Assembly: GCA_017536895.1 (NCBI GenBank)
Contig: JAFWCN010000005.1
Coordinates: 1-64,000, forward strand
From: Candidatus Saccharimonadota bacterium
GTDB lineage: Bacteria; Patescibacteriota; Saccharimonadia; Saccharimonadales; Saccharimonadaceae
Direction of reading: 5' to 3'
DNA: 64,000 bases
Shown in pieces: positions 34,241 through 61,293 of the stretch (the stretch's first letter is position 1; every line of letters starts with the position of its first letter). The notes below the pieces were generated by a model. The model saw only the letters and a program-made list of their open reading frames with translations. It was not told where the DNA came from and made no database searches. A program made the translations under genes and the position numbers.

Positions 34241-36999
<2,759 letters not shown>

Positions 37000-56397: not shown

Positions 56398-57300
56398 ATG
56401 AAAATAGATTCTGAACAAGAAATGCTCGATTTTGGCAAAGATTTTGCCAAGAATCTTAAATTCCCAGCAGTGATTGAATTAGTTGGCGACGTTGGTGCCG
56501 GTAAAACCACTTTCACTCGCGGCCTCGCCGAAGGCCTTGGAGTTAAAAGCCAAATCACCAGCCCCAGCTTTACCATTTCAAAATCTTACGCTTTACCAAA
56601 CAACAAAAAACTTATCCATTACGACTTCTACCGCCTAAACGATGTGGGTCTCATGGCCAATAATCTCAAAGAAGCCATCAGTAGCAATAATGTCGTAGTT
56701 ATCGAATGGGGAGAATCAATCAAAAACGTTTTACCTAAAAACAAGATAACTATCTCATTAAAACTACAAAATGATGGGGGCAGAAGAATAATTATTGAAG
56801 GTAATCGGAATAGTGTCTTTCGAGACACTGACATCAAAAATAGCCGAAGCAGTGTTTCTCGGGGGCTTCCGGAGGTTACGACCGCTCGCCGAAGGCGTAT
56901 CGTAGCGTCGGATGAGGGCGCGAGCCCTGTGACGACAGGAGCGAGCGACCCGTCCCCCGAAAACACTGTTCGGCTATTTCTCGACACCAGTACTCCCGAA
57001 ACAGTTTTACGATTGAACGACAAAGAATACAAATACCCTTTTGCCAGCGACCTCGCCGAAAAACTCTTAAAATTCATCAAAGACAAACTCGACGAAAACA
57101 ATTACACTTGGCAAGACATCACCGAAATCACTTTTATGTCCGGCCCCGGCTCCTTTACAGGCCTTCGCATCGGCGCTAGCATAGTAAACACTCTCGCCCA
57201 TGAACTAAGAATCCCACTCTATGATCACAAAGGTCAAAAACACGACCAAATCATTCCCGATTATGGTCGTGCAGCTAATATTTCAAAGCCCGTTAAATAA
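56398..57300 (+). CDS. tsaE: TsaE-TsaB fusion (t6A biosynthesis) joined by a palindromic insertion
   Basis: Residues 1-140 are TsaE, the ATPase of tRNA threonylcarbamoyladenosine synthesis (GDVGAGKTTFTRGLAEGLG at 30-48, SPSFTISKSY, HYDFYRLND, VVIEWGE). Residues about 190-300 are the N-terminal half of TsaB (VRLFLDTSTPETVL, MSGPGSFTGLRIGASI). The join at residues about 148-193 is encoded by a palindromic repeat also found in lepA. The TsaB part is about half the usual length, so TsaD contact may be reduced. The ATG follows TATAAT by 6-8 bases without an SD. Confidence 0.88.
   Translation: MKIDSEQEMLDFGKDFAKNLKFPAVIELVGDVGAGKTTFTRGLAEGLGVKSQITSPSFTISKSYALPNNKKLIHYDFYRLNDVGLMANNLKEAISSNNVVVIEWGESIKNVLPKNKITISLKLQNDGGRRIIIEGNRNSVFRDTDIKNSRSSVSRGLPEVTTARRRRIVASDEGASPVTTGASDPSPENTVRLFLDTSTPETVLRLNDKEYKYPFASDLAEKLLKFIKDKLDENNYTWQDITEITFMSGPGSFTGLRIGASIVNTLAHELRIPLYDHKGQKHDQIIPDYGRAANISKPVK
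56838..56979 (+). repeat. Palindromic coding-region element, copy A
   Basis: The outer arms pair over about 24 bases (AATAGCCGAA, CAGTGTTT, CGGGGG on the left against CCCCCG, AACACTG, TTCGGCTATT on the right). The inner part has CGGAGGTTACGACCG, GAGGGCGC, GTGACGAC and AGCGACCCGT, shared with copy B at 60654-60769. It carries about 20 extra bases relative to B. It is read in frame inside tsaE-tsaB and encodes EVTT, EGASPVTTG and SDP. Confidence 0.85.
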
Positions 57301-58473
57301 TCATTTCTTCTCTATCGTTTTTTGCTGTGAAGCCATTTCTTCTGCTTCACGCGCCGATAGTCTTCGACGCACTACACTTCGAATTGCCGCCGCCATTAAT
57401 ACTGAAAACACTATCACCATCACGCCTTCTATTGTCGCCATCACAATAAAACCTCTTGTTCCATCTGGTTTTACTACTGACGTTTCACCAAGCGGTGCTA
57501 CATATGATGGGTCCGTCGGGTCGTAAGCAATTTGCACACCATCACCTTCGCGATTTGCCAATTTTGCATCAGTAATCGTCAAACTCATGCCGACGAGCTT
57601 AACTTCAAAAACTGAATCTGCAGAGTCTCTATCCGCATGGAATATTCTAATAATTGACCCATTCCCCGCATCAAGTTTAATACCCGAATAAGCCAGCTCC
57701 TCACCATTCACTCCGGTATACACTTCACCATTGTCATTAATTACAAATCTGCCCGTCGTCGCATCATGTATTCCACCCATATCAATGGCCAATTTATCAC
57801 CTATATAGACAAACGTATCATCATCTGCTCGAATTGCAAAACCTTCATTGCCGCTCGCAAGTACCGTAAATGGTACCGCAAAACTCATTGTGAACAAATG
57901 GTTGTGCCCATCCCTATTCACCGCATCGCCATTGCTAAAATCTGCACCATCCAAAGGATAAAAATGATCATGGTGAAAAGAGAATTCCGCTCCTTCCGGT
58001 TGATACTCTAATTTCAAAGCTCCAGTATAATTAGCACTCTTCCCATCTACCGCCTCAAACCATCCATCAAAATTACTTAAACCCTGATTTGGAGTTAGCT
58101 TACCATTGCCCGTCGCTACTGGTAAATATTCCTCAGATAATTCATACTCCGCCAAACCTTTTTCAACTTCTTTATTATAGTATTTACAGCTACTCCATTC
58201 AAATTGACGAGTCTTCAGGCTGTTTTTTACATTCAAATCATACATATTAACGCATTCGTCTGACTTTCGATCAAAATATGCCACCGACAGATAAACATCC
58301 TCACTCCCGGACAAACCCGCACTAGCTAGTATCGCTGTCGGTGATTTTGATATCGCAATCTCATCAATTGCCCCCATTGTAGAAGAGAGCCCCACAATCG
58401 CCAAAATCATCGCCACTACAAAAGTTACTAACGCTACTATACCCAATTGTCGTGATTTTTTCTTTTTCTTCAT
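57301..58473 (-). CDS. Membrane-anchored fibro-slime-type surface protein
   Basis: The 390-residue protein has an N-terminal membrane helix (after MKKKKKSRQ), an external region ending in a fibro-slime/PA14-like domain (FYPLDGADFSNGD, HNHLFTMSFAVPFTV, GFAIRADDDTFVYIGDKLAIDMGGIHDATTGR, IRIFHADRDSADSVFEV) and a second helix near residue 345 with a charged tail. I choose the ATG at 58473 because GGAGAG stands just before it; the ATG at 58485 lies upstream of that SD. It may bind carbohydrate or host surface. It converges on tsaE-tsaB with no gap. Confidence 0.8.
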   Translation of the reverse strand: MKKKKKSRQLGIVALVTFVVAMILAIVGLSSTMGAIDEIAISKSPTAILASAGLSGSEDVYLSVAYFDRKSDECVNMYDLNVKNSLKTRQFEWSSCKYYNKEVEKGLAEYELSEEYLPVATGNGKLTPNQGLSNFDGWFEAVDGKSANYTGALKLEYQPEGAEFSFHHDHFYPLDGADFSNGDAVNRDGHNHLFTMSFAVPFTVLASGNEGFAIRADDDTFVYIGDKLAIDMGGIHDATTGRFVINDNGEVYTGVNGEELAYSGIKLDAGNGSIIRIFHADRDSADSVFEVKLVGMSLTITDAKLANREGDGVQIAYDPTDPSYVAPLGETSVVKPDGTRGFIVMATIEGVMVIVFSVLMAAAIRSVVRRRLSAREAEEMASQQKTIEKK

Positions 58474-58520
58474 ATTACTCTCCATTTTAAGTATATGCTT
58501 TTTTCATATAAAAATCAACC

Positions 58521-58922
58521 CTACTCCGTTTTTGGAATCCCAAAACTCTCATCAGACAACACTTTTTCTTCAAATGGTTTTTCGTAAGCATTCACTGCAT
58601 CAACTTCTGCTTGTAATTCTTCCAAATATTTTTCCAGAACAGTCAAATCGATCGGTCCCGTCTTGTCAAACTTAAATTCTTCCTCGTCATCATCATTATT
58701 TTCCTCTTCAATCTCTTCCTCATCCGGCAAAAACCCTGGCCTAGACCGGTCTAGATAAATATCACCTGAGTTATGATAAATCAAAAGACTCACTCCGCTC
58801 GTTATAACGGCAATCACTACGGCCATTATTCCTAAAATCACTAAATTCCACCCACCTTTATTCAGCTTTTTCTTCTGTTTTTTCTCGTCAGAAACTTTAT
58901 CTTCTACTTTTTTCTCTTCCAT
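58521..58922 (-). CDS. Small membrane protein with acidic tail
   Basis: The 133-residue protein has a Lys-rich cytoplasmic start, one membrane helix (residues about 25-48) and an acidic external region (EEEIEEENNDDDEEEFKF) ending in a helix. No family recognised. Its ATG overlaps the stop of the upstream secreted protein gene by 1 base, so the two are co-translated. Confidence 0.65.
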   Translation of the reverse strand: MEEKKVEDKVSDEKKQKKKLNKGGWNLVILGIMAVVIAVITSGVSLLIYHNSGDIYLDRSRPGFLPDEEEIEEENNDDDEEEFKFDKTGPIDLTVLEKYLEELQAEVDAVNAYEKPFEEKVLSDESFGIPKTE

Positions 58923-59416
58923 TAGATTTTACCCCTTAATACCGTTACCAACCTTACGTGTTTTGAGATTAAGTTTCGAAGTTTCAATGCATCTTGCCCT
59001 ACGATTTTTCGTTTTTGTCTAACCTTATCCAACTTCTCATAAAAATTTGCCGGCTCCTTTTTACAATCTAACGCCACGAGTTCCTCTAATCTTTGTTGAT
59101 AATCAATATAATCATTATTAAATAAACTCTTCGTCTCTGCAAAACTATTTTGGTTTTCCACCAGTTCCACATTCGACAGATTATTTTCTAGTAACCTCAC
59201 GTTAAGTGGCATCATAAAACTAGTTAAAATTGTCTCATATCTGCCGCCTAAATGAACTCTTGTTCTTGCGTCGTCTTTTTGTACTGCTTTTAATTGTTCT
59301 TTTATTTCATTACATTTATCAACAATTGCTTTTTCCTGGCTTTCGGAAATCGCAAAACACGGCAAAGCAACCAAACTCATCACGAAAACCGCAAATACTA
59401 CCAATAAACGTTTCAT
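58922..59416 (-). CDS. Small secreted helical protein
   Basis: The 164-residue product has a signal peptide (MKRLLVVFAVFVMSLVALPCFA) and a mature helical, coiled-coil-prone part with two Cys (CNEIKEQL and LDCKKEP). No family is recognised. It lies 17 bases downstream of lepA on the same strand and is coupled to the small membrane protein downstream. Confidence 0.7.
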   Translation of the reverse strand: MKRLLVVFAVFVMSLVALPCFAISESQEKAIVDKCNEIKEQLKAVQKDDARTRVHLGGRYETILTSFMMPLNVRLLENNLSNVELVENQNSFAETKSLFNNDYIDYQQRLEELVALDCKKEPANFYEKLDKVRQKRKIVGQDALKLRNLISKHVRLVTVLRGKI

Positions 59417-59433
59417 ACAACGATTATAGCATA

Positions 59434-61293
59434 TTAATCACGCTTCAACATGACTGTAAAAGCTTCCGAAGGAATATCAATTTTTCCAAATCCTTTCATC
59501 CGTGCCTTCCCGCGCTTCTGTTTTTGGAGAAGTTTTGCTTTTCTATCTCTATCCCCAGTATGAATTTTTACCGTCACATCCTTTCTATATGCTCCTATTG
59601 TTTCTCTCGCAATGATTCTCGCCCCAATTGCCGCCTGCAAAGCAACCTCATAGTTTTGTCTCGGAATCACTTCCTTCAGCTTTTTCGTCACTTCTCGCCC
59701 AATTCCCTCAGCTTCCGATCGATGTGCCATCACCGAAAGCGCATCCATTTTATGTCCACCTACCAGAAAGTCCACCCTCACCAAATCCTCTGTTCGGTAC
59801 CCATCAAGTTCATAGTTAAACGACGCATATCCCGAAGTGGCCGATTTTAATTGGTCATAAAAATCCGTCAGCAAATTCGCCATTGGCGCTTCAAAATCAA
59901 TCACTGCCCGATCCTCAATATAACTAAGGTTTGTCTGATGCCCTCGTTTACTATTAATCAAATTCAAAACTCCGCCAATCATATCTTTCGGCAAAATAAT
60001 TTCACCTTTTACCCACGGTTCTCGGATTTCAGCTATTTCCGATACGTCTGGCAAATCCGCTGCTGATTTAATCTCGCGTATTTCACCGTTTGCCATCACC
60101 ACTTCATAGTTCGTAGACGGATTTGTCACAATCAAATCTAGCCCAAACTCTCGCTCTAGTCTCTCGCGAATAATATCCATATGAAGTAGCCCCAAAAATC
60201 CAATCCGAAGCCCAAACCCAAGCACTGGCGAATTTTCTGGCTCAAACCGTAGCGCCGAATCCGAAAGTGCTAGTTTTTCGATCGCCTCCTTCAAATCCTT
60301 ATACTGGTCATTTGAAACTGAGAAAAACCCAGCATACACAAAAGGCAAGACGTTTTTATAGCCTGGCAAAGCTTCTTTCGCTGGTGATTTGGCCAGTGTC
60401 ACCGTATCACCCACTTTCGCTTCACGCGTAGTTTTAAGGTTCGTCACGATGTAGCCAATTTCACCCGCTTTCAAAGAATCTCGTGGTGTCATTTTTGGCG
60501 TTAATATTCCAACTTCCAACGCCAAGCCCTTCGTCTCCGCCGCCATCATCAATATCTCATCATTCTTCTTAATCTCCCCGTCAAATATCCTTATATAAAG
60601 TACTACTCCTCGATAATCGTCAAAATATGAATCAAATATCAGTGCCTTAGTAGGCCCGAAGCTGAAGTTGGTTTGGGACCGTTCGGAGGTTACGACCGAG
60701 AAAGAGGGCGCTTCGCCCGTGACGACGGGCCAAAGCGACCCGTGTCCCAAACCAATCTTCAGTTCGGGCTTAGTAGTTATTATTTTATCCAGTATTTTAT
60801 CCACATTTTGTCCGGTCTTACCGGAGACTTCTATAATATCTTCACGCTTACATCCAAGCAGATTAATAATTTGCGCTGAAACCGATTCGACATCAGCCGC
60901 CGGAAGATCAATTTTATTAATCACCGGAATAATTTTTAGGTCCTGTTCCAAAGCTAGATAAACATTTGCCAGCGTCTGCGCTTGAATCCCTTGCGTAGCA
61001 TCAACCACCAAGACCGCAGTCTCCACCGCTTGCAAAGAACGCGATACCTCATACGAGAAATCCACATGGCCCGGTGTATCAATCAAGTTCAAGGTATATC
61101 CCTTCCACTTCATCGTCACCGGCGCCAGCTTAATCGTAATCCCTTTTTCTTGTTCAAGCTCCATCGAATCCAAAAGCTGCGACTTCATTTCGCGTTTCGA
61201 CACTGTCCCCGTAAGTTCCATCATCCGATCCGCAATCGTGGATTTCCCGTGATCGATGTGCGCAATGATACAAAAATTCCGGATTTTATCCAT
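59434..61293 (-). CDS. lepA: Elongation factor 4 (LepA) with an in-frame palindromic insertion
   Basis: The 619-residue translational GTPase has FCIIAHIDHGKSTIADRM (G1), DTPGHVDF (G3), NKID (G4), domains II, III and V, and the LepA-specific C-terminal domain (ALQAAIGARIIARETIGAYRKDVTVK ... KLLQKQKRGKARMKGFGKIDIP). Residues about 173-214, between the G domain and domain II, are an extra segment (HGSLWPVVTGEAPSFSVVTSERSQ) encoded by palindromic copy B. The usual length is about 600. The gene follows pnp immediately (stop and start abut). Confidence 0.96.
   Translation of the reverse strand: MDKIRNFCIIAHIDHGKSTIADRMMELTGTVSKREMKSQLLDSMELEQEKGITIKLAPVTMKWKGYTLNLIDTPGHVDFSYEVSRSLQAVETAVLVVDATQGIQAQTLANVYLALEQDLKIIPVINKIDLPAADVESVSAQIINLLGCKREDIIEVSGKTGQNVDKILDKIITTKPELKIGLGHGSLWPVVTGEAPSFSVVTSERSQTNFSFGPTKALIFDSYFDDYRGVVLYIRIFDGEIKKNDEILMMAAETKGLALEVGILTPKMTPRDSLKAGEIGYIVTNLKTTREAKVGDTVTLAKSPAKEALPGYKNVLPFVYAGFFSVSNDQYKDLKEAIEKLALSDSALRFEPENSPVLGFGLRIGFLGLLHMDIIRERLEREFGLDLIVTNPSTNYEVVMANGEIREIKSAADLPDVSEIAEIREPWVKGEIILPKDMIGGVLNLINSKRGHQTNLSYIEDRAVIDFEAPMANLLTDFYDQLKSATSGYASFNYELDGYRTEDLVRVDFLVGGHKMDALSVMAHRSEAEGIGREVTKKLKEVIPRQNYEVALQAAIGARIIARETIGAYRKDVTVKIHTGDRDRKAKLLQKQKRGKARMKGFGKIDIPSEAFTVMLKRD
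60647..60776 (-). repeat. Palindromic coding-region element, copy B, with 7-bp target duplication
   Basis: The element spans 60654-60769 (116 bp). Its outer arms pair over about 25 bases (GCCCGAA, CTGAAG, TTGGTTTGGGAC against GTCCCAAACCAA, CTTCAG, TTCGGGC). It is flanked by direct TTAGTAG at 60647-60653 and 60770-60776. Element plus one duplication is 123 bp, exactly 41 codons, so lepA stays in frame. The inner part matches copy A. Read against the gene direction, lepA uses the opposite orientation from copy A. Confidence 0.88.

Follow-up and report, generated by a model that had tools for sequence, protein, structure and literature searches.

In the genome of a Candidatus Saccharimonadota bacterium, tsaE and tsaB share one open reading frame, joined by a linker that a palindrome encodes, which raises the question of what this palindrome is and how it came to lie between two genes. 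The sequence under study is a stretch of 64,000 nucleotides (contig JAFWCN010000005.1), referred to here as the window. The evidence presented below makes it probable that the palindrome is a copy of a non-autonomous mobile hairpin element belonging to a single genus of Saccharibacteria, and that it fused tsaE to tsaB on landing.

The fused tsaE-tsaB gene and its linker palindrome

The fused gene contains the following parts, all on the + strand.

56398..57300, + strand: fused tsaE-tsaB open reading frame (ORF), 300 aa, with TsaE and TsaB-type domains in one ORF
56398..56808, + strand: TsaE domain (PF02367 at residues 4-130; confident AlphaFold2 fold)
56812..56829, + strand: small hairpin AGTGTCTTTCGAGACACT, by eye like the left arm found at the same place in G072 and G006
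56838..56979, + strand: the entire palindromic element, encoding roughly residues 147-194 of the fused ORF
56839..56869, + strand: left arm, whose outer part AAATAGCCGAA is the tsaB codons of the right side, inverted
56870..56909, + strand: core hairpin I, in a long variant that has 25 bases more than the common one, CGGAGGTTACGACCG
56916..56951, + strand: core hairpin II, GGGCGCGAGCCCTGTGACGACAGGAGCGAGCGACCC, with tetraloop GACG and a bulged A; covariation in 46 copies
56953..56979, + strand: right arm, whose outer part TTCGGCTATTT overlaps native tsaB codons 2-4
56968..57300, + strand: TsaB part, 110 aa, a length normal for the genus, with GTT in place of ATG

The palindrome is imperfect and was missed by a repeat search with default seeds. 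Compared with shuffled sequences, it folds with z-scores of -6.9 as DNA and -7.3 as RNA, and none of 200 shuffles folded as well. The long variant of hairpin I recurs in two further copies elsewhere in the genome, and the small hairpin upstream of the element is, from its sequence, probably the remnant of an earlier one. In the encoded protein, the TsaB/TsaD-type domain (PF00814) covers residues 219-275. AlphaFold2 models confident TsaE and TsaB domains and gives residues 141-186 a pLDDT below 50, and the modeled linker is probably floppy. Predicted peptides that span the element include GLPEVTTAR and IVASDEGASPVTTGASDPSPENTVR.

In most relatives, the two genes are separate ORFs in which the tsaE stop overlaps the tsaB start at ATGA, and where the fusion is absent no linker at all lies between TsaE and TsaB. 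The element occupies the junction in the genome studied here (G000) and in G006, G071, and G072. In G066, the fused linker resembles, by eye, a decayed element (SDLSPVIKNVGGAS as compared with DEGASPVTTGASDPS), and every fused case contains an element or an apparent remnant within its linker. Because tsaE and tsaB are separate and mostly overlapping genes in relatives, the proposal of the first-pass annotation that an insertion joined them in frame is upheld. The element would have landed on the overlapping stop and start, removing both signals and leaving the two frames continuous. The annotation had also tied the insertion to a half-length TsaB, and this part does not hold: TsaB measures about 110 aa whether or not the element is present, including in the stand-alone proteins of relatives across the clade.

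Two other accounts of the linker, that it is ordinary protein sequence or that it is an assembly artefact, have a negligible chance of being right. Palindromes do misassemble at times in metagenome bins, which lends the artefact some general plausibility; however, no result obtained here suggests it, and the same element lies at orthologous places in many independent assemblies. An ordinary linker should be conserved in all relatives as protein sequence, and the relatives instead have none.

The fused genomes are scattered on a LepA tree, in which the unfused G003 adjoins G000 and the unfused G042 adjoins G071; at least three changes of fusion state are needed to satisfy its well supported branches. 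Judged from this tree, which is of one gene, is weakly resolved, and has unsettled bootstrap support, the fusion likely happened more than once, in an uncertain number of events. The tsaE-tsaB gene is offered as an example of a palindromic element creating a gene fusion.

Other arrangements occur at this locus. In G003, G005, G007, G053, G060, and G065, tsaE and tsaB are neighbors on opposite strands and form no tandem. Between the unfused tsaE and tsaB of G018 (L074) lie two concentric palindromes of another core type, which resemble G000 C9:8086. In the tsaE-tsaB linker of G072 (L062), and at G000 C16:3539-3807, a palindrome is nested in the tetraloop region of another element.

Distribution, structure, and in-frame copies of the family

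The window has exactly two places, 56870-56953 and 60684-60743, at which both core motifs quoted in the first-pass annotation are found together; the second is in lepA, where a further copy of the roughly 140-bp palindrome had been reported. An empty site in ligA is also relevant.

60653..60772, + strand: second element copy, in lepA (aa 174-213, between the GTPase domain and domain 2)
59434..61293, - strand: lepA ORF that carries the second copy
35701..35759, + strand: ligA site, empty here; three relatives (L092, L144, L181) carry an element in this stretch, with different arms

The lepA copy folds with a z-score of -7.6 against shuffles. It has CTACTAAG on both flanks, and other copies show no consistent duplication.

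Larger inserts are seen at the same LepA linker, where lepA is split by about 0.7-3 kb at L053 (G018), L055 (G069), and L058 (G067) and, by coordinates, also in G020, G023, G054, G060, G062, G063, G070, and G075. At L053, L055, and L058 the insert is a gene, and the C-terminal half of lepA has its own ATG; we take these inserts to be one aquaporin-like and two phosphoglycerate-mutase-like ORFs.

With gaps allowed between the two motifs, the exact core pattern has sixteen matches in the own genome (836 kb), versus none for the reversed control; a broader strict structural pattern gave 22, and a looser scan about 30 places with arm support. We take the family size here as at least 22 strict copies. 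Of 60 genus genomes sampled, 40 carry strict copies, and 183 genomes that represent 121 other genera of the order have none; in an order-wide sample of 198 genomes the element was confined to one of 122 genera, its own. Among the matches listed in a scan of species genomes, the labels were Saccharibacteria (many from the ruminant gut, including Ca. Nanosyncoccus alces) apart from one contig labeled Nomurabacteria, and did not point to an origin in Rickettsiales. The element was not found in the viral contigs searched, no similar DNA was found in phages (lepA copy as query) or plasmids (tsaE-tsaB copy as query), and no Rfam family matched positions 56700-61000, which include both window copies.

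The genome holds other palindromes as well. Copies of a second family share the inner sequence GCCCGATAAAAATTACAAC...GTTGTAATTTTTATGCGGC, and each has its own pair of complementary outer arms, about 20-27 nt long (G000 C17:109123-109289, C7:6001-6167, C2:23584-23750, C7:20865-21078, and C11:27573-27742). A third (G000 C1:75749-75936 and C16:11532-11718) has a near-identical interior of about 140 bp within near-perfect outer arms that are wholly different, one pair of which contains the terminator-like GCCTCGGAAAGGCTTTTT.

The element unit is about 118-145 bp, and consists of a core of two hairpins, about 60 bp long (84 bp in tsaE-tsaB), within a stem of about 27 bp. From the outside in, the arms are followed by a GGG/CCC clamp, often with a GA/GA internal loop ahead of it, and then by the two hairpins: hairpin I has a tetraloop, and hairpin II has both a bulged A and a tetraloop of the GNNG type. 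Arm pairing mostly stops 26-30 nt from the core, as measured on the right side. In 46 copies, 93.9% of core cells were paired and 14 of 24 pairs showed a double change; double-change cells numbered 134, as compared to 36.9 +/- 5.8 in shuffles, and slid controls collapsed. The core tetraloops exchange among TACG, GGCA, TGCT, and AACG. Each copy has arms of its own that nonetheless pair with each other, with 21-50 paired bases in nearly all copies, whereas right arms dealt to other copies mostly gave 2-9. MAFFT alignment of the arms was unreliable outside the core because arm offsets vary. At sites shared across species, 99 changed arm pairs comprised 48 with two-sided compensation, 31 with one-sided changes that still paired, and 20 that were broken, versus about 13, 44, and 130 for foreign right arms. 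The first-pass description of a conserved inner sequence within divergent, self-complementary arms is thus borne out.

That annotation read the pattern as selection on folding; compensation in the arms is predicted both by such selection and by hairpin-templated copying of one arm onto the other. A further explanation is that the copies are functional structured RNAs or DNA sites kept by selection on folding, with mobility incidental. Strong core covariation, tetraloop exchange, and compensated arms would all be expected of such sites. However, the copies lie in ORFs in both orientations and at varied positions, many being lineage-specific; the elements are also absent from related genera and without an Rfam match. 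We regard this explanation as improbable and retain that of a mobile hairpin element.

Insertion into reading frames, which had been likened to that of the Rickettsia elements, is widespread, in that 99 of 143 copies are in frame within ORFs, which run antisense to the core in 57 cases and sense in 42. Three frames of the core, out of six, are free of stops, and the few peptide types that the copies insert, EVTTEDEGASPVTTGASDPS and GSLAPVVTGLAPSSSVVTS among them, match these frames. Copies would be tolerated inside proteins because the stop-free core can be read through as a soluble linker peptide. The hosts in the own genome, with proteins named by their Pfam domains, are tsaE-tsaB, lepA, peptidase M1, a methyltransferase, gatB, uvrB, mnmA, dnaX, tsaD, two class-I tRNA synthetases (leuS is named among the hosts), a tRNA U5-methyltransferase-type gene, femAB, truB, two wzy, a glycosyltransferase, priA, and an rluD-type gene. 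Empty orthologous sites were found for 65 copies, and the insertion boundaries are approximate because the genomes that supply the empty sites belong to other species, with about 70-85% identity. With many shared and empty sites over dozens of species, the mode of movement is directly testable. We infer that new insertions continue, that the fused product is translated, and that its linker is harmless.

Origin of the arms and proposed movement of the cores

The same core is found with different arms at unrelated loci, as with the genome-specific GAGTAT core of G018. Conversely, homologous arms hold different or inverted cores at L089/L173 versus L110, L008 versus L174, L141/L200 versus L153/L181, and L030 versus L044. 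Such exchange is compatible with gene conversion and with the kind of stem-loop replacement that has been proposed for IS1272.

The empty sites give a mixed account of where the arms come from. At pheT, the left outer arm GGATTTCAGATAA is native, and the own genome, whose copy is empty, has the identical sequence. At tsaB in G000 and G071, codons 2-4 are native and the left arm is their inverted copy. The GGTCC of the lepA copy (GPxP) is native in many relatives, and at the G000:C1 copy the native stop codon lies within the left arm while the right arm is inserted. In contrast, neither arm is present in the empty site at L025 of G018 (as compared with four relatives), L119, or G000:C2.

One explanation is that each insertion makes its own arms, the core integrating and 10-30 nt of target flank being copied inverted, so that all arms are target-derived. 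The native arm sequence at pheT, tsaB, lepA, and G000:C1 is in keeping with this, as are the differing arms around the GAGTAT core of G018. The sites at which neither arm is native do not agree with it, nor do the inherited and coevolving arms of shared sites or a weak arm consensus (EM information of 6.2 bits versus 2.8 in shuffled arms). We hold it to be unlikely, if worth keeping in mind; as a rule for all arms it was dropped, since the outcome was mixed both in an automated empty-site test and among the ortholog groups. Fold-back copying, whether during insertion or later, is nevertheless favored because, at some sites, the outer 10-15 nt are native and the opposite arm is their inverted copy. 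Within the preferred reading of a mobile hairpin element, the data suggest hairpin-based insertion with fold-back copying, followed by core exchange. A bolder version, to which we give a similarly low likelihood, is that palindromic landing sites persist while interchangeable cores move among them by stem-loop-directed replacement or by fold-back synthesis that copies the target. If true, it would mean mobility without a dedicated transposase, rewriting protein linkers across the genus.

Spread of the element may depend on a hairpin-recognizing enzyme or on replication-linked template switching. Searches of the own genome found no RVT_1, no Y1 transposase, and none of PF01797, PF13751, and PF07282; DDE_Tnp_1_6 and TnpB-type domains were lacking in seven carriers, and a Y1 transposase was found in only 2 of 60 genus members. 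The own genome has two rve-type transposase ORFs (G000 C1:93068 and C6:30704), which are absent from six other carriers. Reverse transcriptase was rejected as the mover, given that the copy-rich G000 and G042 have none, and the Y1/RAYT, IS1182-type DDE, and TnpB families were likewise set aside when these searches yielded no mobilizing enzyme.

Comparison with known palindromic elements

The copies could also be REPs of the GTAG or CGTC class, spread by a RAYT (Y1) transposase. GTAG and CGTC REPs are 20-40 bp with an unpaired terminal tag, have intragenic copies in repair, replication, and pseudouridine synthase genes, and in the CGTC class lack a known transposase (PMC3733652). The present copies likewise include short palindromes within genes of these kinds and of tRNA modification, and CGTC is present in the reverse-strand tetraloop. 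However, the unit of about 118-145 bp is untagged and has a branched core, and the scarcity of Y1 transposase described above further contradicts this origin, which we consider most improbable.

The MITEs Correia/NEMIS, ERIC, and RUP are small and non-autonomous, with terminal inverted repeats and some in-frame fusions (PMC10969869, PMC2229807). The element resembles them in size, non-autonomy, and in-frame fusion, but its arms share no terminal repeat, no consistent target duplication is seen, and no parent transposase was found (PF01797, PF13751, PF07282, and rve searched). IS1272, a 1.9-kb transposase-bearing IS, deletes a target stem-loop and replaces it at palindromic sites (PMC5678879). 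The different or inverted cores in homologous arms recall this, although gene conversion gives the same picture; unlike at IS1272 targets, the arms here persist, and such a transposase was not found.

The closest parallel is with the Rickettsia palindromic elements (Ogata et al. 2000, 2002), which are outlined in later accounts as in-frame stem-loops of about 105-150 bp, of several families and with no known transposase (PMC10969869, PMC2229807). The present element is similarly a palindrome of 100-150 bp forming one long stem-loop, lies in a stop-free frame within unrelated conserved genes, and is accompanied by several families per genome and no mobilizing enzyme that we could find. It differs in its host, Saccharimonadota rather than Alphaproteobacteria, and in its near-constant core within site-specific, coevolving arms, with cores exchanged between sites. 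The protein-coding palindromic repeats of Wolbachia (Ogata et al. 2005, as cited in PMC2229807) share, by that description, in-frame palindromes in a reduced, host-associated genome, and differ in phylum and in the same features of core and arms. A search of open-licence papers found no report of such elements in Saccharibacteria. On present analysis, the best reading is that they are a new, genus-restricted family that may be called RPE-like, being likened to the Rickettsia elements by description and not by sequence.

In these accounts, palindromes inserted in frame into essential proteins on a large scale are mainly a feature of Rickettsia, and are also described in Wolbachia and, on a smaller scale, for REPs. 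The genome studied here adds some 20 conserved genes that are interrupted but open, independently of Rickettsia, which suggests that tolerance of such elements recurs among genomes that are reduced and host-dependent.
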